Origin: Paenibacillus taiwanensis DSM 18679
GTDB taxonomy: Bacteria; Bacillota; Bacilli; Paenibacillales; Paenibacillaceae
DNA: 64,000 nt
Reading direction: 5' to 3'
NCBI RefSeq assembly: GCF_000425125.1
Contig: NZ_KE384306.1
Location: 397,705 to 461,704 of the forward strand
This document shows positions 10,515 to 25,021 of the stretch, in pieces. The position numbers were made by a program, and so were the translations under genes. Below the pieces are notes generated by a model. The model saw only the letters and a list, made by a program, of their open reading frames with translations. It did not search any database and was not told where the DNA came from. The first letter of the stretch is position 1. Each line of letters starts with the position of its first letter.

Positions 10515-12563
10515 ATGATTGATTATTCTCTAATTCCAGTGACGATGATTAAAGGCGTGAGCACTTTGAAACAACAAGAGCTTCACGCCTTTGGCATCTC
10601 TACCGTTCAGGATATGCTGCTTTATTTCCCATTTCGCTATGAAGACTTTCGAGTACGGCAATTAAGTGAAGTAAAAGACGGCGAGAAAATTACGGTGGAA
10701 GGTCGCATCGTAAGTGAGCCTGTTCTACAGCGGTTTGGCAAGAAATCACGCTTGTCGTGCCGCATCATGATCGAGAGCTGGCTGGTGACCGCGACTTGGT
10801 TTAACCGGCCTTATCTGCGTGAACAATTATTCCAAGGTAGGGACATTTTGGTTACTGGCAAGTGGGATCAGCGCAGATTACAACTGACGGTCTCTACCTC
10901 TGAATTTCCGGATCGCGGAGCATTCCGCAAAGACACGCTACAGCCGGTCTATTCTGTTGGCGGGAAGATTACGCAGCAATGGATGCGTAAGACCATCGCT
11001 CAGGCATTAACGCAGTTTGGGGAAACGATCCCGGAAATTTTGCCGCAGGAGCTTGTGCGACGTTATCAACTCGTTCCACGGAAGCAGGCGATTCGTACGC
11101 TGCATCAGCCACAGGATGCGGAAGAAGGCAAACATGCACGGCGCAGAATGGTTTATGAGGAGCTGTTCTTGTTTCAGCTCAAGCTTCATATGTTTCGTGC
11201 GCTGACGCGTAAGCGAGCAGATGGAGTGGTACATGAGGTTTCCAACTCCACTGTGCGTGAATTTGTACATTCGCTGCCCTTTGAGCTTACCGAGGGGCAA
11301 AAGAAGTCTGTGACGGACATTTTACAAGATATGCGGTCTCCGTTTTGTATGAATCGTCTGTTGCAAGGCGACGTTGGTTCAGGCAAGACTGTAGTAGCGG
11401 CCGTTGCGTTATTCGCAGCTGTTCGTTCCGGTTATCAGGGTGCACTAATGGTGCCAACAGAAATATTAGCTGAGCAGCATATGCGTTCGCTGACGAAGTT
11501 GTTTGAACCACATGGGATACAGGTTGCGTTATTAACAGGCAGTGTGTCGGTACGCAAGCGGCGTGATTTACTGGGCGCTTTGCAGATGGGAATGGTCGAC
11601 ATTTTGGTTGGCACGCATGCGCTGATTCAAGACGATGTATATTTTCGCAAGCTAGGACTTGTAGTAACTGACGAGCAGCATCGGTTTGGGGTGAACCAGC
11701 GCAGCGTGCTGCGCCGTAAGGGGCTTAATCCAGATGTACTGTTGATGACGGCAACACCTATTCCGCGTACGTTGGCGATTACCGCTTTTGGTGATATGGA
11801 CGTCTCCTCTATTAAGGAGCGACCAGCAGGCCGGAAACCTATTAAGACTTATTGGGTGAAGCATGAGCTGCTGGATCGAATTTTGAACTTTATTAGGCGC
11901 GAGATTGCAGACGGCAGGCAAGCCTATATCATATGTCCCCTTATTGAGGAGTCGGACAAGCTGGACGTCCAGAACGTTATTGATGTTCACGTCCAGATGC
12001 AGCAGGCATTTCCTGATTTACAGGTAGGCTTGCTGCACGGCAGATTAAGCGCTGTGGAGAAGGACGCTGTGATGCGTTCTTTTGGTGACGGTGAAACTCA
12101 CGTGCTCGTCTCCACGACGGTCATCGAGGTTGGGGTGGATGTACCAAACTCTACGCTAATGGTTATTATGGACGCGGAGCGTTTTGGTTTGTCGCAGCTG
12201 CACCAGTTGCGCGGACGTGTGGGACGGGGGCAGCATCAGTCGTATTGTGTGCTGATTGCCGATCCGAAATCAGAGATCGGACAGGAGCGTATGCACATTA
12301 TGACCGAGACAGAGGATGGTTTTGAGTTGTCTCAGCGTGATCTGGAGCTGCGTGGTCCAGGCGATTTCTTTGGAACCAAACAGAGTGGTATGCCGGAGTT
12401 TAAGCTTGCGGATATGGCGAGCGACTTTGCTGTCTTGGAGCAGGCGCGTGATGATGCAGCGGAACTAATTCGTGCAGAAGAGTATTGGACTTCACCGATG
12501 TATGCGCTGCTGCGCGAGGAAATGCAAAAAGATCAGTTGTTCCAAGGTGAATTAATGGACTAA
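10515..12563 (+). CDS. recG: ATP-dependent DNA helicase RecG
   Basis: The 682-residue helicase remodels stalled replication forks and branch-migrates Holliday junctions. An N-terminal wedge/OB domain (about 1-220) precedes two RecA-like domains. Walker A is GDVGSGKT (about 286-293) and the family-specific DEQH box is at 386-389. Also visible are TATPIPRTLA, STTVIEVGVDVPN and the motif VI region QLRGRVGRG. Length matches the B. subtilis protein (682). It follows degV/fakB by 19 bases. Confidence 0.97.
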   Translation: MIDYSLIPVTMIKGVSTLKQQELHAFGISTVQDMLLYFPFRYEDFRVRQLSEVKDGEKITVEGRIVSEPVLQRFGKKSRLSCRIMIESWLVTATWFNRPYLREQLFQGRDILVTGKWDQRRLQLTVSTSEFPDRGAFRKDTLQPVYSVGGKITQQWMRKTIAQALTQFGETIPEILPQELVRRYQLVPRKQAIRTLHQPQDAEEGKHARRRMVYEELFLFQLKLHMFRALTRKRADGVVHEVSNSTVREFVHSLPFELTEGQKKSVTDILQDMRSPFCMNRLLQGDVGSGKTVVAAVALFAAVRSGYQGALMVPTEILAEQHMRSLTKLFEPHGIQVALLTGSVSVRKRRDLLGALQMGMVDILVGTHALIQDDVYFRKLGLVVTDEQHRFGVNQRSVLRRKGLNPDVLLMTATPIPRTLAITAFGDMDVSSIKERPAGRKPIKTYWVKHELLDRILNFIRREIADGRQAYIICPLIEESDKLDVQNVIDVHVQMQQAFPDLQVGLLHGRLSAVEKDAVMRSFGDGETHVLVSTTVIEVGVDVPNSTLMVIMDAERFGLSQLHQLRGRVGRGQHQSYCVLIADPKSEIGQERMHIMTETEDGFELSQRDLELRGPGDFFGTKQSGMPEFKLADMASDFAVLEQARDDAAELIRAEEYWTSPMYALLREEMQKDQLFQGELMD

Positions 12564-12722
12564 CAACCTTTATTTTTGGACGGTCAGTTGACAAGCTGTC
12601 GGGCATACAATGGTACAGATTATGTGCAGTGCAGTGATTGCTTCAGCAGGATGCGCTGAACAAGTAAAGCAGTCTATGTAACGTTGTCATAGCTGCAAGA
12701 TGCACCGGAGGTGTGCCCTACG

Positions 12723-13010
12723 ATGAGTTATGTCAAATATGGGATTAGCCCGCAATTGGTTGAACGGATCAAAACCAAGCTGCGTAATCCTGCTCTAAAA
12801 GATCGAGTAAAGCGTCATTTGGATGGCGTGTCGAAGTATGATTTGCAGGATCGTACCAAAGTACGCTCGCTTATTCGTCAGGTGGCCAAATCTCTTAACG
12901 AGCCGTTGACGATTGTGCAGGAGGATCAACTGGTCAACTTTGTTATTTCACTTAAGATAGACCCGAACAATACGTTTCATTTGCTTAAACTATGGGGAAT
13001 GTTTCGTTAG
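12723..13010 (+). CDS. SpoVIF-like sporulation protein (probable)
   Basis: The 95-residue basic protein contains YGISPQLVERIKTKLRN, a DLQDRTKVRSLIRQ segment and a C-terminal KIDPNNTFHLLKLWGMFR. This resembles the Stage VI sporulation protein F family, which helps spore coat assembly in B. subtilis. A gene annotated this way commonly follows recG in Paenibacillus as I recall it. The ATG at 12723 follows GGAGGTGT by nine bases; a GTG at 12711 lies inside the SD. No membrane segment is present. Family assignment is from memory of pattern. Confidence 0.6.
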   Translation: MSYVKYGISPQLVERIKTKLRNPALKDRVKRHLDGVSKYDLQDRTKVRSLIRQVAKSLNEPLTIVQEDQLVNFVISLKIDPNNTFHLLKLWGMFR

Positions 13011-13018
13011 TATTTGCA

Positions 13019-13055
13019 GGAGAACCGGGTGGGAAATCATCTGGTTCTTCTTTTT
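13019..13055 (+). terminator. Terminator after the SpoVIF-like gene
   Basis: A stem AGAACCGG/CTGGTTCT with a 12-base loop is followed by TCTTTTT. It closes the recG unit and marks the left edge of the variable region. Confidence 0.7.
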
Positions 13056-13229
13056 ATTCGTTTGTAACGGTTGAACCTGTCGCTAACCGTCGCTAAAGAT
13101 TGATCATACGAAAAAGCAGCATGCCTTCTTTGATTATTTACTGTGTAAATATATCCATATTAAGGGAGTTGTGGTATGATCGATTTATAGAGACTAGCAG
13201 GAGTCAACTGCATAGGGGGAATTCGATTC

Positions 13230-14525
13230 ATGATATCCATGTTACGTAAGAAGAAAAGTTCGATGTTCGATAGCCTTGATAGTGGATCGTGTCGTATTGA
13301 TGTGCCACAAGCGATGTTAAATCAATTGCGAATGATTGGGTTGACTACACGTGACCTCGCTATGCTAAAGCAGCTAAGGCCGCATGTAGAGGACAGCATC
13401 GACAAGACAATTGACTCATTTTATGACACGGTGAATAAAGAAAAACAGTTAAGTGACATCATCCGCAAGCATAGCCACACAGATCGCCTCAAGCTTACAC
13501 TACGGCCGCATCTGATGCAGTTGTTCGAAGGAAAGATCGATGAAGTATACATAGAGAGACGCCGCATTGTAGCACATGTTCATGTCCGCATTCATTTACC
13601 AACCAAATGGTATATCGCCTCTTTTCATACGCTCCAGCAATCCATTTTAGAAACCGCTTACAAATTAGGAATATCCTTGGATGAATATAAAGCACTAGAG
13701 CAGGCGATTACACGTATGCTTAATCTGGAGCAGCAGCTTGTGCTAGAAGCGTATGAACAGGAGCACAGTCGGCTGCGTGCAGAGGCAGAAGTGGAGAAGG
13801 TGAAAGTTCGTCGCATGGTGTCTGAGGCAAGTGAAGCCCTATCACATAGCACGGCCGAGACGCAGCAAGCTCTAAATGAAATGGTTCAACGTTCTCAGGG
13901 AATGTTTGAGAAAGTACGTTCTAGCAATCAAACCTCTGACTCAGTAGCTGTGCTTTCGCACGATGGCAGCTTGATGTTAGGCGAGCAGCAAGCACGTATG
14001 GAAAATATCGTAAGCGCGATGAATCAGGTAACGGGCCGTATGACGGAGCTGATGTCCATATCTGAAGAGATTCATCAAATTATGGACATCGTACAAGGGA
14101 TATCACAGCAGACGCAGCTTCTTGCCTTGAATGCAACAATTGAAGCCGCACATGCTGAAGAACATGGAAAAGGCTTTGCTGTTGTGGCGCGTGAGGTCCG
14201 TCGTATGGCGGAGCGGACGAATGAATCGTCAACTGTTATTCAGCATTTGATCGGCAAAACACATGAGAAGATTGCTGTGATTAATGAAGTGATGCAGGAG
14301 GTGGACAACCGTATTCAGACGGGCAATGGGGAGACGGGAAAAGCGTTTGAATTCTTCTCGCATATTTACGAGCAGATTCAACATCATCAGCAGCAAAGCC
14401 AGGAAGTGCTAACCGACGTTGAGTTTCTTGGCTCGATGCTAGAGGAGATTCGGGAAGCCTCGGATGCGGTTAATCATCAGGCAGATGTCTTGATGGATAT
14501 GATTCAGCAAGAACAGAAAGTTTAA
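13230..14525 (+). CDS. Globin-coupled sensor, HemAT-like methyl-accepting protein
   Basis: The 431-residue protein has an N-terminal protoglobin domain (about 20-175) and a C-terminal methyl-accepting signalling domain. The globin part has AHVHVRIHLPTKWYIASF, with His118 at the place of the haem-binding proximal His of B. subtilis HemAT. The signalling hairpin tip includes LALNATIEAAHAEEHGKGFAVVAREVRRMAERT. There is no signal peptide, membrane helix or HAMP domain, so it should be a soluble oxygen or gas sensor. The ATG at 13230 lies nine bases after AGGGGGA. No che genes are nearby. Confidence 0.9.
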   Translation: MISMLRKKKSSMFDSLDSGSCRIDVPQAMLNQLRMIGLTTRDLAMLKQLRPHVEDSIDKTIDSFYDTVNKEKQLSDIIRKHSHTDRLKLTLRPHLMQLFEGKIDEVYIERRRIVAHVHVRIHLPTKWYIASFHTLQQSILETAYKLGISLDEYKALEQAITRMLNLEQQLVLEAYEQEHSRLRAEAEVEKVKVRRMVSEASEALSHSTAETQQALNEMVQRSQGMFEKVRSSNQTSDSVAVLSHDGSLMLGEQQARMENIVSAMNQVTGRMTELMSISEEIHQIMDIVQGISQQTQLLALNATIEAAHAEEHGKGFAVVAREVRRMAERTNESSTVIQHLIGKTHEKIAVINEVMQEVDNRIQTGNGETGKAFEFFSHIYEQIQHHQQQSQEVLTDVEFLGSMLEEIREASDAVNHQADVLMDMIQQEQKV

Positions 14526-14534
14526 TCAACAGCA

Positions 14535-14578
14535 GGCTGTCAGTCACTACGATGGAGGTAGGCGACTCACAGCCTTTT
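14535..14578 (+). terminator. Terminator after the HemAT-like gene
   Basis: GGCTGT (14535-14540) pairs with ACAGCC (14569-14574), with an inner AGTC/GACT pairing. TTTT follows. Confidence 0.6.
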
Positions 14579-14612
14579 GTATATAGATCATCCGTGGTTT
14601 TCATTTTTTCAT

Positions 14613-15308
14613 TTAAAATAACAAGGGGGGATCACTAATAGCTGTTATACATTCAGGCGAATCGTGTTTAACATTACCTACTTTAGGATCTACAGGATAC
14701 ATCTCCAGCCACTCAGAAGGACAGGGCTTTAATAACCGTTGCAGCTTGTCCACTTCTACAACACTTCTGTCCAGCCATGTGGACGCCTCTTCAGGGCCTA
14801 GTATGACTGGCATTCGATCATGTACTTGCTCCATTGTCCGATTCGGAGTTGTTGTGACGATGGTAAAAGTGCTCATTTTCTCTCCATGTTCATTTCTCCA
14901 AGTGTCATATAGACCTGCCATGCTGAATAAACCTCCGTCAGCGGGGACGATACGCAGCGGTTGTTTCTTGCCATCGCTTGCAAGCTTCCATTCGTAAAAG
15001 CTGTCCGCTGGAATGAGGCAGCGTTTGCGTTGGAACGGTTGGCGAAACGCCGGCTTCTCTAGCAGCGTCTCAGCACGGGCATTTAGGGTACGCCATCCCA
15101 TCTTGTCATCTTTCGCCCAAGAAGGTATTAATCCCCATCGCAGAGGTCCTGCCTTCCGTTTTTCCCCATCATGAATAATAGCCGGCGCTGTTTGCCCGGG
15201 CGCTATATTGTAGCGCGGTTGATGGCAGGCAACAGACGGACCTTCCTCCAACTCGTAATACATGAGAAGTTCTTCCCACGTGATGGTTAGAGTGTAACGT
15301 CCACACAT
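14613..15308 (-). CDS. SRAP/HMCES-family abasic-site DNA-protein crosslinking protein
   Basis: The 231-residue protein begins MCGRYTL, and Cys2 becomes the N-terminal residue that forms a thiazolidine crosslink with abasic sites in single-stranded DNA. Other family motifs are the Asn in PRYNIAPGQ, ARAETLLEKPAF, RCLIPADSFYEW with the catalytic Glu, and VHDRMPVIL with the conserved His. Length is standard (about 220-235). The ATG follows AAGGAGGTGTTACAT. Bacterial members often sit near translesion polymerases, and a Y-family polymerase lies 3 kb away. No LexA box was found just upstream. Confidence 0.93.
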   Translation of the reverse strand: MCGRYTLTITWEELLMYYELEEGPSVACHQPRYNIAPGQTAPAIIHDGEKRKAGPLRWGLIPSWAKDDKMGWRTLNARAETLLEKPAFRQPFQRKRCLIPADSFYEWKLASDGKKQPLRIVPADGGLFSMAGLYDTWRNEHGEKMSTFTIVTTTPNRTMEQVHDRMPVILGPEEASTWLDRSVVEVDKLQRLLKPCPSEWLEMYPVDPKVGNVKHDSPECITAISDPPLLF

Positions 15309-15730
15309 TTATGTAACACCTCCTTTGCTTTACAACGGGTACAACGGGGATGCAGTCTTAGGCCCACATGTCCATATGTCTGCATTGTAGCATATCGTGA
15401 ATCGACTCGACTAATGCAATAGGGGGAAGTGACGCAGTTCACTAGCTCTAGGCACATTTAGTGTCATGTCATGCACACATTGACGATAAAGATCGATCGA
15501 TATGCGTTTACAAATGGACCGCTATATTTTCAACTGCTGAAATCTACCAGATGTTTGACAGAATGTTGTCATATTTCATAGCTTTGCAGCATATTATAGA
15601 ATATCAGTGCAACGAGCACTGCGCTGATTGAGTTGTGATGATGATGTTTCATTTTTATATTTCAATGATTGATCGTAGGCCAGAACGTTAACGATAGGAA
15701 GCTTATAATAGATTAGGGAGGTTGAGCTTT
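15309..15730. other. Divergent intergenic region
   Basis: No gene is supported here. It separates the minus-strand SRAP gene from the protease-nuclease gene and holds the TGACA palindrome at 15556-15571. TATAAT occurs at 15704-15709 but is too close to the SD to be the main promoter. A weaker TTTCAT-N17-TAGAAT pair begins near 15573. Confidence 0.4.
15556..15571. promoter_or_regulatory. TGACA-N6-TGTCA palindrome
   Basis: A perfect 5-bp inverted repeat with a 6-base spacer begins one base into a TTGACA hexamer (15555-15560). It lies about 160 bases upstream of the protease-nuclease gene. It is a possible operator; the cognate regulator is unknown. Confidence 0.35.
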
Positions 15731-17560
15731 ATGTTTATCCATCCGATCAACAAGGCTTCATCCGAATTTATCGGGATATCCTTACAAGCAAAGCAAAATG
15801 ATCTGACTACACAGCGATATCAACAACGGTCCAATGAGCGGGGCAAAAATTTGTCAGCGTTACAGTGCAAAAATCCTTTTGAAGTGGATAGCCCTGAAAG
15901 GGCTGCACAACGCCAACAATTTATTGATCCTAGAGACGGAATGGCACTAGAACGTATTTTAGGAAAAAGCGACTTATTTCCAATCAGCTTTTTTGAAAAG
16001 GGGCTGCAAGTCAGTAAGGCCATCTGTAGGGTGGAGATCCGTGATCGAACGGGAAGAGTCGAAGGATTTGGGACAGGCTTTCTCGTAACTCCCAATCTGC
16101 TGCTGACCAATAATCATGTCCTGCCTAATTCGGATACGACGTTATCCAGTATGGCGCAGTTTAATTATGAAATCGATCTGAACGGGAAAGAACGAGTCAT
16201 GCATAGCTTTCGATTGATGCCAGACCGGTTTTATATGACGAATGAGGAATTGGATTTTACGTTGGTAGCAGTTGAAGAGCAAGCTTCTGATGGAACCCCA
16301 TTAGCCGAATTCGGTTACTTGTCTTTGGTTAAACAAACAGGCAAGGTGCTGATTGGAGAATATGTGTCCATTATTCAGCATCCGTCTGGTGCACCCAAAG
16401 CAGTAGTCGTAAGAGAGAACAAAATAACAGATATGCTAGATAACTTTATTCACTATTCTGCTGATACTTTGCCAGGCTCATCAGGTTCTGCTGTATTTAA
16501 TGATGAATGGATGGTAGTTGCGCTCCATCATGCGGGTGTCCCTGATCCGAAAAATCCGGCGGAGTTTATTGCGAATGAAGGTGTCCGTATAAGCAGTATC
16601 CTCAAGTATATTGAAGAACAGAAGTCGAATCTAACCGCTCAACAGCAGCAGTATGTGGATCGTCTAACATTATCTGCTGAAGGGACTAGCCCAGAAGGAG
16701 AGAAGCTTGCAGTAGGAGAGGAATTAGGCCTGGTATGGTATGAGGGGTTAACCGGCCACGATAGCAAGTTTCTAGGTGACGCTCATGAAGTTCATCATCC
16801 TTCGTTTCGTACGGATCTCGAACCAGACCTGGCAAGGCTAAAACAAGGCGGCACCATTCTTCATTATACGCATTTCTCCATTGTGATGAGCAAATCTCGG
16901 CGACTCGCCTATTACACGGTAGTTGACATTGATGGCAGCCAATTAACTGATTATGACAGGGTAGATTGGCGCTATGATCCGCGTATTGATCGGATGTATC
17001 AATGTGGTAATGAATTGTACAAGGACAACCCTCTGGATCGAGGACATTTAGTAAGGAGAAGGGACCCGGTGTGGGGGAGAGCGGGAGCGCAAGCAAACAT
17101 CGATTCTTTTCATTTTACGAACTGTTCACCGCAGCATGAGAAATTTAATCAGCAGATATGGCTTGGGCTGGAGGATTATATTTTAAATCATATGAGTAAT
17201 ACGAAGCGCAAAGCCTCTGTATTTACGGGTCCTGTATTCCGTAAGGATGATATCTGGTATCGAAATGTTCAAATTCCTTCTGAATATTGGAAAATTGCTG
17301 TTATGGTCGATCATAACGACCGGCTATCGGTAACGGCATACCTCACATCCCAGTGGAGCTTGATTAAATATTTAGGAACGGCGAAGGAAGAAGAACCTGT
17401 GCTAGGCGCCTACAAAACATTTCAGGTTAAAGTTTCCTTGCTTGAGGCGTTGACGGGGCTGGATTTTGGAAATTTGCGTCTATACGACCGGCTAGATCTG
17501 AAGGAGTCTACATTCGGACAAGTTCCGATTGAGCGTTTTGACGATATACAGCTGATTTGA
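15731..17560 (+). CDS. Trypsin-like serine protease fused to NUC1-type endonuclease
   Basis: The 609-residue protein has no signal peptide or membrane helix. After about 70 residues comes a short helical segment with ALERILGKSDLFPISF, resembling the small adaptor domains of bacterial conflict proteins. A trypsin-fold protease (about 95-290) has His129 (LLTNNHVLP), Asp175 (ELDFTLV) and Ser251 (PGSSGSAVF). The C-terminal half (about 345-605) is a DNA/RNA non-specific endonuclease with DRGH at 436-439 and FTNCSPQHEKFNQQIW. The ATG at 15731 lies nine bases after GGAGG; a TTG at 15722 is in the SD. It is a single-gene unit next to DNA-damage genes. A defence or stress role is inference. Confidence 0.85.
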   Translation: MFIHPINKASSEFIGISLQAKQNDLTTQRYQQRSNERGKNLSALQCKNPFEVDSPERAAQRQQFIDPRDGMALERILGKSDLFPISFFEKGLQVSKAICRVEIRDRTGRVEGFGTGFLVTPNLLLTNNHVLPNSDTTLSSMAQFNYEIDLNGKERVMHSFRLMPDRFYMTNEELDFTLVAVEEQASDGTPLAEFGYLSLVKQTGKVLIGEYVSIIQHPSGAPKAVVVRENKITDMLDNFIHYSADTLPGSSGSAVFNDEWMVVALHHAGVPDPKNPAEFIANEGVRISSILKYIEEQKSNLTAQQQQYVDRLTLSAEGTSPEGEKLAVGEELGLVWYEGLTGHDSKFLGDAHEVHHPSFRTDLEPDLARLKQGGTILHYTHFSIVMSKSRRLAYYTVVDIDGSQLTDYDRVDWRYDPRIDRMYQCGNELYKDNPLDRGHLVRRRDPVWGRAGAQANIDSFHFTNCSPQHEKFNQQIWLGLEDYILNHMSNTKRKASVFTGPVFRKDDIWYRNVQIPSEYWKIAVMVDHNDRLSVTAYLTSQWSLIKYLGTAKEEEPVLGAYKTFQVKVSLLEALTGLDFGNLRLYDRLDLKESTFGQVPIERFDDIQLI

Positions 17561-17883
17561 TCGTAGTTCTATGCTTTTTAGGCTATAAATAGATGTGTGC
17601 TGCAAGATTGTAATGAGAGGTCAAACGGGAAACTGGCTGGCCTCTCAGTATTGTGAATAATAGTGTGCGTATATCAAGCTATCAAGCTAGCCGCTTTGCT
17701 TAAAGGGAACTTTGTTTATTTATCTTCATATCTTGCAGTATATCTTTCCTTTTGAGCTTTCGTAATTTGATTTTGGAATACATCTTTTTGAATAGTTACT
17801 TATGTTTAACGATAATAGGGTAGCGTTCAAGTTCTGTAACAAGTTGAAAATTGAAAATTAAAGGGAAATGTAATCAAAGAGGG

Positions 17884-17921
17884 TTCCACATAGTAGTTGC
17901 ATACTATGTGGAATTTTTTTT
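17884..17921 (+). terminator. Strong Rho-independent terminator
   Basis: A perfect 12-bp stem TTCCACATAGTA/TACTATGTGGAA with a 6-base loop is followed by eight T. Confidence 0.85.
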
Positions 17922-18060
17922 AATTTTTTTTGTTATTAAATTATTGTTTATAGGTCTTGATCATGTTCAGTCATTTTCATATAAAGCAAGACCTGCTTGC
18001 CCATCTCCAACAGTCATATAATGAAGCACGCCTCTGAGGGGATAATTCCATAATATTCAC

Positions 18061-18089
18061 TTGCATAACGAACAAGTGTTCTGTATATA
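18061..18089 (+). promoter_or_regulatory. Promoter of the Y-family polymerase operon
   Basis: TTGCAT (18061-18066) and TATATA (18084-18089) are separated by exactly 17 bases. A LexA box fills the spacer, so repressor binding would block RNA polymerase. Confidence 0.7.
18069..18082. promoter_or_regulatory. LexA (SOS) box
   Basis: CGAACAAGTGTTCT matches 13 of 14 positions of the Gram-positive LexA consensus CGAACRNRYGTTYC. It sits between the -35 and -10 elements. Confidence 0.85.
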
Positions 18090-18098
18090 ATATAAAAA

Positions 18099-18112
18099 AG
18101 AATGTACGTTCT
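18099..18112. promoter_or_regulatory. Second, weaker LexA-like box
   Basis: AGAATGTACGTTCT matches 11 of 14 consensus positions and starts ten bases after the -10 element, near the expected start site. Two boxes in tandem would give tighter repression. Confidence 0.5.
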
Positions 18113-18198
18113 CATTTTTGTTAATTGTATAAAAAGGTAGTCAAGTCCTAAAACAGTAAAGCGTGATACAAGGTTGTTGAATAATTGGAGGGCTTAAT

Positions 18199-19467
18199 GT
18201 GAGTCATAAACGTGAAAAGGTTATTTTTCTAGCCGACTGCGAAAGTTTTTATGCGAGCGTAGAGAAAGCGGAACATCCAGAATACAAAAATAAACCAGTA
18301 GCAGTAGCTGGTGACCCTACACGAAGGTCAGGTATTATTTTAGCCGCGTGCCCCATTGCGAAAAGTTATGGTGTGACGACAGCCGAACGGTTAGGAGAAG
18401 CACTCAACAAGTGTCCTGATCTTATTATTATGCGCCCTCGCATGCAGCATTATATCGATGTTTCTTTAATGATTACTCAAATATATGAGGATTTTACGGA
18501 TTTAGTTGAAGTGTTTAGTATTGATGAACAATTTTTAGATGTTACGGCAAGCCTGTCGATCTTTGGAGATCCGCTCACCATTGCTAAGGAGATTCAACAA
18601 CGGGTAATGATGCAAACAGGTGTCAGGATTCGTATCGGAATCAGCACCAACAAAATTTTGGCTAAAATTGCGACCGATATTTGGGCGAAGAAAAACAAAA
18701 GCGGCATTTTTACTTTACTACCATCTGATGTACCTAAAATGCTATGGCCGGAACCTGCTCACAAAATGTTCGGTGTCGGGTCGCGGATGAGCAAGCATTT
18801 TGCCAAATTAGGAATGGTGACGATTGGCGATGTTGCAACCACTCCACTGCCGCGGCTTAAAGATAAATTTCGAGCTCGCTTTGGCAAGCAGTCGGATATT
18901 CAAGCCGAGGTGATGTGGCGGACGGCGAACGGGCTAGATGATAGCCCGGTTACCCCGAGGACATTTCATACGCCGCCCAAATCTATCGGCCATATGATGA
19001 CCTTACCCCGAGATTATGCAGCTTCCGCAGAGATCGATACGATTTTGCTAGAACTGACGGAGGAAGTATGCCGCGATTGTCGGCTGAAAGGTTACATGGG
19101 ATGGGTTGTAACCGTGAGCTGTATGTGCAGTCCATATGAGGAGCCGACAGGCTTTTCTCGCCAAATGAAAATGCCAGATCCGTCAAACAATACGAATAAA
19201 GTATTTGAGATGGTAAAAACAATTTTTTATCAATATTGGGACCATATGCCTGTGCGCCGCGCGGGCGTTATGTTAAGCACGTTGGTGGATGATCAGCACT
19301 ATCAATTGACCCTTTTTGAGGATCAGGAGAAAACTCGAGCGTTGGATAAAGTTACCGATAACATAAAAACGCGATACGGCAGCGCAGCAATTGTAAGAGC
19401 TTCCTCCCTTACTCGTGCAGGTCAAGCGTTAGAAAGATCCATAAAGATTGGGGGACATTTTAAATGA
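18199..19467 (+). CDS. Y-family translesion DNA polymerase (UvrX/YqjW type)
   Basis: The 422-residue polymerase copies past damaged bases. The palm motifs FLADCESFYASVEKA and VFSIDEQFLDVT carry the metal-binding Asp and Asp-Glu pair. The finger segment RRSGIILAACPIAKSYGV is typical of the UvrX/YqjW branch rather than classic DinB. Helix-hairpin-helix (about 190-215) and little-finger (about 250-370) regions follow. GTG start with GGAGGG about six bases upstream. The promoter contains a LexA box. It overlaps the next gene by ATGA, like yqjW-yqjX and uvrX-yolD pairs. Confidence 0.92.
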   Translation: MSHKREKVIFLADCESFYASVEKAEHPEYKNKPVAVAGDPTRRSGIILAACPIAKSYGVTTAERLGEALNKCPDLIIMRPRMQHYIDVSLMITQIYEDFTDLVEVFSIDEQFLDVTASLSIFGDPLTIAKEIQQRVMMQTGVRIRIGISTNKILAKIATDIWAKKNKSGIFTLLPSDVPKMLWPEPAHKMFGVGSRMSKHFAKLGMVTIGDVATTPLPRLKDKFRARFGKQSDIQAEVMWRTANGLDDSPVTPRTFHTPPKSIGHMMTLPRDYAASAEIDTILLELTEEVCRDCRLKGYMGWVVTVSCMCSPYEEPTGFSRQMKMPDPSNNTNKVFEMVKTIFYQYWDHMPVRRAGVMLSTLVDDQHYQLTLFEDQEKTRALDKVTDNIKTRYGSAAIVRASSLTRAGQALERSIKIGGHFK

Positions 19468-19946
19468 GTAAAAAGCTGGAGCAGAACGGTCTTTGGGAGT
19501 CCAGTCGTATGATGTTGCCTCAGCATCGAGAAGCGTTGTTAAATAGGGATCGTGTAGTACCGCGTCTTACGACTAGCCGTCCTAAACAGGAAGATATGGC
19601 ATTGATACGTGATTATATTTTGCTTCCGATCATGCACACGCTAGTAACTAAAAAAATGTCCGAAATGAAAAATTCTTCGGAGACGCTAAAATCGCTGTAT
19701 GCCAAAGCAGCTCAAATTCTCGCCGTTCATATCCACAAAAACTTGTGCAAGGTGAAACAAGAAATGATGGAAAAAGAAATTCACATTTTACATGACGAAA
19801 AGCATGAAGATGTAATGGAGCTGCATTATTCCTATCGTGATTATGAAGATCGTTTAATTATAACAAAAGAATATATGAAGGCAGAAATAAGCAAGAGGTT
19901 AGCTCAATACACAGACAGCCTTATAGCCAAATTAAGTAACCCCTAA
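19464..19946 (+). CDS. YolD-like partner protein of the Y-family polymerase
   Basis: The 160-residue protein starts inside the polymerase stop codon (ATGA). Its N-terminus (LWESSRMMLPQHREALL) carries the W-x-s-x-MLPxHxE signature of YolD-like proteins, which accompany Y-family polymerases in Bacillus. The C-terminal half differs from YolD. It is a helical region with IHILHDEKHEDVMELHYSYR and is clearly homologous to the gene at 20128-20541. There is no membrane segment. Its role is probably a regulator or accessory of the polymerase; this is inferred from context. Confidence 0.7.
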   Translation: MSKKLEQNGLWESSRMMLPQHREALLNRDRVVPRLTTSRPKQEDMALIRDYILLPIMHTLVTKKMSEMKNSSETLKSLYAKAAQILAVHIHKNLCKVKQEMMEKEIHILHDEKHEDVMELHYSYRDYEDRLIITKEYMKAEISKRLAQYTDSLIAKLSNP

Positions 19947-20042
19947 ATAAGAAACTAAGCTATTGCATCACGCAGTGGTTTACTAATTAAGACGGCAGGC
20001 CACTGCAGCTATTAAGGCATGTTATACAACCCGTAAATCCAA

Positions 20043-20078
20043 AACAAGTAGTCGATCCCATGAGATCGACTACTTGTT
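20043..20078. terminator. Bidirectional terminator between convergent genes
   Basis: A perfect 15-bp stem AACAAGTAGTCGATC/GATCGACTACTTGTT has a 6-base loop. The minus-strand side is followed by TTGG and ATTT, the plus-strand side by ACAG, so it works best for the minus-strand gene. Confidence 0.75.
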
Positions 20079-20127
20079 ACAGAGGCTCTGCCATACGCGC
20101 TCCAGACTTGACCTTGTCCTAATTTAA

Positions 20128-20541
20128 TTACGGAGCGATTGTATTCGGTTGTTCCGCAGAATGAATGTGCAAGTAACGCTTCACTAGGCTAGTGACTTCA
20201 GTGCGCAGCAGACCACGCAGCATGTAGAAAGAATGCTCGTAGCCTCTGCACATGTAGTGTACACGTATACCATGAGTTTGTCGTTCTTCATCATATACTT
20301 TGATTCCTCTCTGTCTGAATTGCTTACGAATGCGATAGAGTTCTGCGGTCGCCTCGTCTTGAGCTTGGCGCAGACTTTCTATGTAAATGTAGGCCATCTT
20401 CAGCGAGGAAGAGGCTAGTCCGGCGATATCACGCTCCAGAACATCGAGGACTAGCGCTTGTAACACATACTGTTTGACGAGCAGTGCGTCGTCAGTGTGA
20501 TGGGGTAGCGTCCCTTGTGGGGAGGTTGGACGGGAGCTCAT
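20128..20541 (-). CDS. Paralogue of the YolD-like partner, SOS-box linked
   Basis: The 137-residue protein aligns over about 110 residues with the C-terminal part of the gene at 19464-19946. Shared features are LVKQYVLQALVL, IKVYDEERQTHGIRVHY and a CRGYEHSF segment matching YRDYEDRL. It lacks the N-terminal YolD-like signature, so this C-terminal region is a separate domain. The ATG follows AAAGGAGGCGTCAC. A LexA-like box lies 38 bases upstream. No known function; linkage to DNA-damage response is inferred. Confidence 0.7.
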   Translation of the reverse strand: MSSRPTSPQGTLPHHTDDALLVKQYVLQALVLDVLERDIAGLASSSLKMAYIYIESLRQAQDEATAELYRIRKQFRQRGIKVYDEERQTHGIRVHYMCRGYEHSFYMLRGLLRTEVTSLVKRYLHIHSAEQPNTIAP

Positions 20542-20578
20542 GTGACGCCTCCTTTATATCGTTATAATGAATATAATA

Positions 20579-20592
20579 CGAACTTATGTTCT
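20579..20592. promoter_or_regulatory. LexA-like box in divergent region (1)
   Basis: CGAACTTATGTTCT matches 12 of 14 positions of CGAACRNRYGTTYC. It lies upstream of the minus-strand YolD-partner paralogue in an AT-rich stretch rich in TATAAT-like hexamers. Confidence 0.65.
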
Positions 20593-20609
20593 TATTATAT
20601 TCAATATAA

Positions 20610-20623
20610 CGAACAAATATTCG
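20610..20623. promoter_or_regulatory. LexA-like box in divergent region (2)
   Basis: CGAACAAATATTCG matches 12 of 14 positions of the LexA consensus. It is 31 bases from the first box (about three helical turns) and closer to the DUF2164 gene. Confidence 0.55.
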
Positions 20624-20716
20624 ATTATCAAGCGGAAGTGAGTGCCAAAGGGAAGGAATGAGCAGGATATTGTCGAAGTGTATCAATGGGTTAGAACAAA
20701 GGAGCGTGGGCAGCAA

Positions 20717-23736: not shown

Positions 23737-24774
23737 TTAGGCCATTCTAAATATAGCTATACCATTGTCCGTTGTTGCTGTTGAGCCCACGGTATTTCCG
23801 TCGTACACGAGTCGGAGAACGTTCGGTCCTGCACCTGTAACAATAATGGCTGAATTTGCAAAGTTCTCCCTTGCTCCTACGCCACCGCCAACAGAAACAT
23901 TTGATGAACCGGGAACCGGTGTACCATTAAGTTCTAATCGTGTTGTAAAGGAGGAGCCAGCAGATGTGTACTGGAGAGATGCGTCATAGGTAACCCAGAA
24001 CGTGGAGTTGGGGGCTAATAAAATATCTGTGGTAGGAATTGCAGCAGTAATATCACCAGAGCTTTGATGGATAGGGATCGTCCATGTTATGGCTTCAGGA
24101 GCATCTGCAATCGCTTGCCCCGTTTCAGAAGCCTGGAAGTAACTGGTTGTGAACGATGGGCCTGTAGCTCCAGTAATTCCAACACCCGTAGCGCCTGTTG
24201 GGCCAGTAGCTCCAACGCCCGTAGCCCCGGTAGCCCCCGTAGCGCCGGCTGCACCGTCGGCGCCAGTCGGCCCTGTGGCACCCGTAGCACCTGCTGGTCC
24301 AGGATCGCCCGTAGCACCCGTGGCGCCTGCTAGTCCATTAGCACCTGTAGCTCCCGTAGCACCCGCTGGTCCAGTAGCACCCGTAGCACCAGAGGCTCCT
24401 GTAGCTCCCGTACTACCAGTAGGCCCTACGGGTCCGCCTGACGGACCTGTTGGCCCTGTTATACCAGTAGGTCCCGTAAGGGAAGGTGCATTTAAAATAG
24501 TTTCCAATTTAGTTGAAAGCAGCATTTCTTTCTTGATCGTTTCTTGTAAAGTACTCTTTACACTTGCGTCGACAGCAAGAAGATCGCTTATAGTTGCAGG
24601 GATGGATAATCCAGGTAAAGTACCAACTGCATATTGAATCTTTTCTGCCTCAGCGTTAATCACGTGCCCAAGTCCGAGCTCTTCGATTGCAATAGACGAC
24701 AAGAGTAAGTTTAAGGCGTCATCTCTTGTAATCGTAATGCTAGGGGTAATATTAGGCAGGTTTGCCTGTGACAT
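23737..24774 (-). CDS. Collagen-like spore-surface protein (BclA type)
   Basis: The 345-residue protein has three parts. The N-terminal ~115 residues ([32 protein letters not shown] in two halves) resemble Paenibacillus exosporium/spore proteins. The central ~110 residues are Gly-x-Thr/Ala triplets such as [10 protein letters not shown]. The C-terminal ~125 residues form a beta-rich domain of the BclA/C1q-like type ending NGIAIFRMA. Such proteins make hair-like, often glycosylated, filaments on spores. The ATG at 24774 follows AAGGAG by ten bases; a GTG three codons earlier is too close to the SD. No signal peptide is seen, as is usual for mother-cell spore proteins. Confidence 0.85.
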
Positions 24775-25021
24775 TAATATCACTCCTTAATAGATAGATA
24801 ATTAATAAACACAACACAGCATATTCATAGAAATAGAAGGTGTACTACCTCAGAGGCAAAATCCGCAAGTATGCTGCGTATAGCAGGTTATTAATTTGGG
24901 CTTGATTCACGAGCCGCTCGCCATTGCAATACGAGAGATCGTGGATAGGATGAAGGAATAAAGTCTATCGTAATGCCATACAGCTTCAGGCTTTTCTGAG
25001 TATGTCACATAGAAATGAAAT

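Follow-up and report, generated by a model that had tools for sequence, protein, structure and literature searches.

The NucA-trypsin "System 3" was predicted by Kaur et al. as a conflict system, fused or split, in which a proteolytic cascade was proposed to deploy NucA (eLife 2020, PMC7159879). They place the class mostly in alphaproteobacteria, give 45 organisms in Table 1, and describe several members with transmembrane segments and subsets with EAD1 or STAND partners; a trypsin-Endonuclease_NS protein had already been listed in a 2008 survey (PMC2605481). Here we analyzed a 64,000-nucleotide stretch of the Paenibacillus taiwanensis DSM 18679 genome (contig NZ_KE384306.1, positions 397,705–461,704; hereafter the window, to which coordinates refer unless a locus is named), in which a single gene at 15731–17560 on the + strand encodes 609 amino acids from its ATG and carries a trypsin-like peptidase and a NucA/Endonuclease_NS domain in one chain. 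This architecture is already known and belongs to the mostly predicted NucA-trypsin class, from whose described members our protein differs in that it comes from Bacillota, is encoded by a gene that stands by itself and has a helical N-terminus of its own. No EAD1, transmembrane segment or STAND partner was found in the chain or its eight neighbors, features that are optional in the source, so that their absence is not disqualifying. We read the protein as a member of this class that lies dormant in the cytoplasm and causes cell death (an abortive, conflict-type effector), with a probability of roughly 0.6. What is new here is the recognition of residues 74–95 as a clade-wide, probably regulatory part of the protease.

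Further described proteins resemble parts of this design. LypC of the Caulobacter crescentus LypABC system consists of an N-terminal trypsin-like domain, a linker and a C-terminal NucA-aligned endonuclease; S296A abolishes lysis, H471A and N505A have no effect, and deletion of the nuclease domain destabilizes the protein (Nat Microbiol 2026, PMC13236601). Compared by published domain limits rather than by sequence alignment, LypC shares with our protein the single-chain layout and a spacing of 34 residues between the catalytic His and Asn. LypC, however, has the partners LypA (CARD-trypsin-ATPase) and LypB (NLR-like) and serves gene-transfer-agent release, whereas no such partner lies beside our gene. 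In Hachiman and AVAST, a trypsin-like protease activates a pro-nuclease and forced protease dimerization is toxic, and protease-activated pro-nucleases are also found in Lamassu and DRT (Tuck et al. Science 2025, PMC12799240). These systems likewise couple a trypsin-like protease to a nuclease in defense, with activation by oligomerization, but their protease is fused to HamA, Avs1a or LmuA and their nuclease has a metallo-β-lactamase (MBL) fold and a gene of its own; our nuclease is of the Endonuclease_NS type, and no MBL-fold nuclease gene was matched among the eight neighbors.

A V8-like protease and a NucA-type nuclease in one chain

The first-pass annotation had described a protease triad and a DRGH nuclease motif in one protein, and both are present. 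Pfam places Trypsin_2 (PF13365) at residues 114–265 (16070–16525, +; whole-protein E 3.2e-21) and Endonuclease_NS (PF01223) at residues 373–581 (16847–17473, +; E 3.2e-46), and both matches are far beyond chance. Among solved sequences, the first domain is closest to staphylococcal SplE and V8-type proteases, and the second to Anabaena NucA and mitochondrial EndoG. We aligned the protein with 41 of 53 two-domain homologues (42 rows; L and G numbers are our handles for loci and genomes), leaving out 12 that were near-duplicate, cut, frame-broken or divergent (L044, L047, L061, L080, L082, L085, L086, L087, L095, L100, L109 and L120). The triad H129-D175-S251 and the nuclease residues H439, N473 and E481 are identical in 42/42 rows, so that neither active site has been lost across the aligned family, although leaving out frame-broken rows biases the count toward conservation of catalytic residues. 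Within DRGH (436–439), D436, R437 and G438 are kept in 41, 39 and 41 of the 42 rows. The protease shares with the V8/Esp glutamyl endopeptidases its fold, its triad and S1 residues of the T/S190 and H213 types, T246 (41/42) and H266 (42/42); this mapping is partly our own, H266 having been aligned to the His of V8 GIHWGG and T246 counted from S251, and His213 is common to Gln-specific enzymes as well.

Selection has acted on both domains. Against the sister-species copy (93% identity), the ratio of nonsynonymous to synonymous substitution (dN/dS) is 0.063 overall, 0.040 in the protease and 0.060 in the nuclease, and both are under purifying selection. The least constrained part is the variable linker at residues 296–341 (16616–16753, +; dN/dS 0.144). 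The gene is the only Endonuclease_NS match of its genome, where the three other Trypsin_2 genes are PDZ-bearing and HtrA-like.

V8 and Esp are secreted and acquire their mature N-terminus when a propeptide is removed (PMC5508998), whereas our chain has no visible export signal and is read as cytoplasmic. By a crude hydropathy measure, with no signal-peptide program behind it, the highest 17-residue Kyte-Doolittle mean within residues 1–60 is 0.63 here and at most 0.78 across the 42 rows, in agreement with the lack of a signal peptide claimed at first. For five rows (L052, L060, L063, L071 and L089) we chose an inner start; from the longest open reading frame (ORF), L052, L071 and L089 rise to 1.94, 1.74 and 1.41. 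Hydropathy revealed no transmembrane-like stretch in the chain.

In PADLOC, the protease domain alone was matched, and weakly, by RT-Protease_XI, LmuA and PDC-M35A. With the full-length model, the top Foldseek rows were to autotaxin, which is not a protease; we presume that its NUC1-like part accounts for the match. Matches in a viral structure library had low TM-scores and each covered the protease or the nuclease alone. The first of them, a Megaviridae trypsin-like protein (BFVD A0A5J6VLR1; 639 columns, TM-score only 0.26), may possibly have more than one domain in common with our model.

Distribution and related fusions

Of the 19 genomes of the genus, 3 have a two-domain homologue (G000, G014 and G005), as do 6 of the 295 genomes of the family and 7 of the 296 in a partly overlapping order sample. 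In a scan of species genomes, 53 of the best 80 of 81 loci counted as two-domain by a rough criterion; among these, L100 proved to be a protease-Endonuclease I protein, and several others are cut by contig ends. The hosts include Paenibacillus, Cohnella, Psychrobacillus, Neobacillus, Planococcus, Peptostreptococcaceae, Streptococcus henryi, Tessaracoccus, a Poribacteria metagenome-assembled genome (MAG) and Methanosarcina, and thus extend to methanogenic archaea. Among plasmids, 127 of 72,556 records matched, 31 of them over at least 80% of the query, and many were rhizobial. A phage origin was dismissed: 1 of 50,697 phage records matched, weakly and in the nuclease part only, and no viral contig was confirmed.

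The remaining 27 loci fell outside the two-domain criterion, and Pfam scans of the proteins of 15 of them revealed the same protease clade with other partners: Endonuclease I (L094, L097, L099, L102), EEP (L110), subtilase (L106, L119), bDLD1 (L108), EAD8 (L107, L111), TPR-S (L117), and sub-threshold matches to a GDSL lipase (L105) and to EAD1 (L116); no further domain was matched in L096 and L101. The above L100, from among the 53, likewise bears Endonuclease I. The clade-mates fused to EAD8, bDLD1 and TPR-S, the TIR-Endonuclease_NS gene of the L117 locus and the patchy, accessory distribution support a role in conflict. The conflict reading of the first-pass annotation thus stands as to the Kaur 2020 class, the patchiness and the sister fusions, and is not supported as to defense neighbors and an SOS context, both treated below.

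Several arrangements were observed beside these. In the gammaproteobacterial MAG locus L117 (5100–8255), the TIR-Endonuclease_NS gene and the TPR-S-trypsin gene lie on opposite strands. A 919-aa Paenibacillaceae protein (L030, 5976–8735) joins the same protease to EEP and Endonuclease I, and G284 and G290 hold frames of similar length. A cassette on a Rhizobium plasmid (L147, 2782–10045) runs from a gene for an LCAT-like hydrolase through a weak MBL match, an S1/P1 nuclease and a serine protease to a NucA-type nuclease; in Bradyrhizobium (L153, 7830–12050) an S1/P1 nuclease comes after the fused gene. In two Paenibacillus species, a second trypsin-like gene stands divergent, 110–114 bp from the homologue (L025, 10710–11729; L026, 9947–10948).

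A putative activation element at residues 74–95

Residues 1–73 (15731–15949, +) are modeled as a helical region (helices 8–32, 34–46, 49–52 and 55–64; mean predicted local distance difference test score of the model 94.1), in the position where sister proteins bear EAD8 or bDLD1. This region has no Pfam match, and no EAD or bDLD match was found in the chain up to E 0.1. Conservation sets in abruptly at residue 74: mean entropy is 2.62 bits at 66–73 vs 1.13 at 74–78, comparable to the 1.17 bits around the catalytic His (111–135). By conservation and structural mapping, residues 74–95 (15950–16015, +) form a clade-specific N-terminal element of the protease, ERIxGxxDLxPISYLExGL. E74 is present in 69/70 protease modules and R or K at position 75 in 64/70; among the 42 two-domain rows the counts are 42 for E74 and 40 for R75. 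The element is also found in clade members fused to EAD8, bDLD1, TPR-S, Endonuclease I and EEP, and stands downstream of EAD8 and bDLD1 where these occur. The segment ERILGKSDLFPISF (residues 74–87), at first described as adaptor-like, is therefore better taken as part of the protease, because it is present clade-wide and comes after the adaptor in those members that have one.

The element maps close to known activation sites. The extrapolated structural position of V8 Val1 is near residue 77, and the FAM111A cut F334/G335 falls near 73/74 in one structural alignment and near 75/76 in another. Because it maps near the V8/Esp trimming sites and the FAM111A autocleavage and dimerization sites, we infer that residues 74–95 may act as a protease activation element. 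FAM111A is the best structural match of the protease and also has an N-terminal helix ahead of its barrel; it differs as a human DNA replication/antiviral defense protein without a nuclease domain (PMC10920703, PMC9798293), and it is weaker in sequence (profile E 4.3e-13, vs about 1e-17 for Spl/V8). Pfam matched nothing in residues 1–101, and no search was aimed at the ubiquitin-like (UBL), single-stranded DNA-binding or PCNA-interacting (PIP) regions of FAM111. Disorder at residues 76–81 was rejected as a sign of a cleavable loop: it was seen, as low model confidence, in the full-length model and was absent from the better protease model.

Weighing the conflict reading

Domain content, conservation and distribution all support a cytoplasmic conflict-type effector; what triggers it, in what order cleavage proceeds and what the nuclease does are inferred. 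The chain would be made in a low-activity form. The protease active site could then be completed by oligomerization through the helical N-terminus, or by a cut at or beside E74-R75-I76 made by the protease itself or by another one. The active protease would cut partner proteins, its own variable linker or both, and nucleic acids would be degraded by the nuclease, leaving the cell arrested or dead. That the protease frees or activates the nuclease, as suggested at first, is unproven, and the dispensable nuclease residues of LypC and the lack of a conserved linker site speak against it.

Several observations weigh against the conflict reading. In the confident protease model, residues 72–77 are helical and not obviously an exposed loop. 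S250 occupies the position of trypsin Asp194, in the trypsin numbering that we assume, so that the classical Ile16-Asp194 switch does not apply as such. The linker, around which autocleavage (residues 290–345) had been proposed, has no invariant residue hinting at a fixed cut site and no conserved site among the 42 rows; E330, a candidate that was invariant in 6 sequences, is Glu in only 15/42 and was discarded. None of the eight window neighbors matched a sensor or NLR gene in Pfam. In LypC, the nuclease residues are dispensable for lysis, and LypABC has its role in gene-transfer-agent release.

The neighborhood likewise offers no defense island. We tallied 38 of the 53 loci, leaving out near-duplicate or partial ones (L044, L047, L048, L055, L061, L062, L064, L080, L081, L085, L086, L087, L100, L109 and L120), with which both Cohnella loci (L055, L064) were lost together. 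The 93 genes within 1 kb (near) were compared with 93 of the 254 genes 4–9 kb away (far). The near genes matched 29 PADLOC families and the far genes 33, with 25 families listed for each set; a defense excess is absent, and no defense island was seen. The commonest near-gene Pfam families, among 25 of 131 listed, were Peptidase_C1 (6/93) and Peptidase_S8 (4/93), while no peptidase appeared among the 25 of 129 far-gene families listed. The Peptidase_S8 signal was discarded, its four members coming from two loci, as the halves of a split gene (L046) and two large secreted-looking subtilases (L050). The Peptidase_C1 (papain-like) gene lies 13–19 bp downstream on the same strand in L069, L070, L071, L072, L074 and L090. 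Because families were partly listed, the far set alone was limited to genes below 1000 aa and the C1 loci are phylogenetically clustered, we take this association as a hint only. These papain-like followers occur in Peptostreptococcaceae, Peptoniphilus, Filifactor, Tissierellia and Peptostreptococcus (five loci) and in Streptococcus henryi.

Alternative explanations

The alternative that survives best, though unlikely, is that the protein works as LypC does, with the protease as the working part, in a proteolytic cascade by which separate lytic effectors are turned on, and with a secondary or stabilizing nuclease domain. The shared layout and the LypC mutants argue for it, as do the papain-like genes behind six homologues. 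Against it, the nuclease is under almost as much constraint as the protease and its catalytic residues are invariant, the genome holding the window has no Peptidase_C1 match, and no LypA/LypB-like gene was found among the window neighbors, the other Trypsin_2 genes of the genome being HtrA-like (LypB-like genes elsewhere in the genome were not searched for).

Delivery into other cells as an antibacterial effector, by a route that needs no signal peptide, is improbable. A leaderless protease plus nuclease would suit such a toxin, and one copy, in Cupriavidus, lies within a cluster of type II secretion genes. Yet secretion or injection genes are absent from the neighbor clusters recurring in at least 3 loci (ORFs of at least 60 aa, so that a smaller immunity gene would escape) and from the 25 of 131 near-gene Pfam families listed, and the protein occurs in methanogenic archaea too. 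A search for the NuiA inhibitor gave no match and is uninformative, control genomes likewise being without one.

Still less probable is a DNA-repair enzyme that removes DNA-crosslinked proteins in the manner of FAM111A, together with its SRAP and DinB neighbors. The gene does lie, as first noted, between an SRAP gene (14613–15308, −; PF02586, E 9e-76), divergent on its upstream side, and a Y-family (DinB/UmuC-type) polymerase gene (18199–19467, +; PF00817, E 1.6e-43), both of which we regard as context outside the system. The placement is incidental: in all genus genomes but G010 (18 of 19) the SRAP and DinB genes are near each other, and of the 18 intervals between them 2 contain this gene and 16 are short or contain other genes. 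Only one of the 53 two-domain homologues, that of the sister species, has SRAP or DinB in the examined flanks. The gene stands alone, and a scan of 15309–15730 against the consensus that we assumed for LexA, GAACNNNNGTTC, revealed no LexA-like box ahead of it; with no such box and no recurring SRAP/DinB neighbors, the suggested SOS link was rejected. A fold in common with FAM111A proves no function. The SRAP-DinB interval itself (15309–18198 in the window; L194–L209) is a variable-cargo site of the genus, 0.3 to 5.9 kb long in 18 genomes, and the DinB gene is inverted between the two closest species. As a defense hotspot it was rejected: the cargo of other genomes, by our reading of the sequences with no domain search, is beta-lactamase-like, two-component, hydrolase or none.

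Least probable of all is a housekeeping or sporulation-linked turnover enzyme: many carriers belong among spore-formers at the genus level, but 16 of the 19 genomes of the genus and 289 of the 295 of the family have no two-domain homologue, and the protein is present in archaea and Streptococcus henryi.

Further features of the locus

The ORF at 15731–17560 is free of stops and frameshifts over its 609 codons, while the opposite strand, in a single frame, is riddled with stops. A Shine-Dalgarno-like GGGAGG (15716–15721, +) lies 9 nt ahead of the ATG. Downstream, a terminator-like hairpin with a T tract (17876–17921, +) separates the gene from the polymerase operon, such sites numbering 8 in 12500–20700 vs 6.2 expected in shuffles. 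Two LexA-box-like sites precede the polymerase gene (18070–18111, +; 18070–18081 exact, 18100–18111 with one mismatch), and that gene is followed by a 160-aa ORF (together 18199–19946, +) that has no Pfam match and that we take to be YolD-like. Two more such sites, one exact, lie at 20580–20622 ahead of the ORF at 20642 (DUF2164). Directly upstream of the SRAP gene, 13230–14525 (+) encodes a protoglobin with a chemotaxis signaling domain, by its domains a heme-based sensor, and 23737–24783 (−) encodes a collagen-like GXX-repeat protein, presumably of the spore-surface kind.

Discussion

These results indicate that P. taiwanensis carries an intact single-chain protease-nuclease, which we favor as a dormant conflict-type effector. 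Beyond the works cited, we recognized no report on this single-chain branch or its E-R-I-x-G element in the open-licence PMC literature. We tentatively extend the reading of the element: E-[RK]-[IVL]-x-G followed by the DLxPISYLExGL helix could be a common activation switch of the whole conflict-protease clade, by which induced proximity or cutting turns an inactive protease on, much as the loss of the propeptide does in V8/Esp and dimerization through the N-terminal helix plus autocleavage does in FAM111A, with papain-like neighbors as upstream activators, although we think it more apt to be wrong than right. Such a switch would work whatever the N-terminal part (EAD8, bDLD1, TPR-S or short helices) or the cargo (NucA, Endonuclease I or EEP).

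The gene is a compact, one-gene case of a class that was predicted in 2020 and is only now being tested, and with everything in a single chain, the order in which the protein may oligomerize, cut and activate its nuclease can be addressed with few point mutants. If the general switch is real, many bacterial immune proteases would share a mechanistic link with V8-type zymogens and the antiviral protease FAM111A, and a single mutation would suffice to silence any of them.
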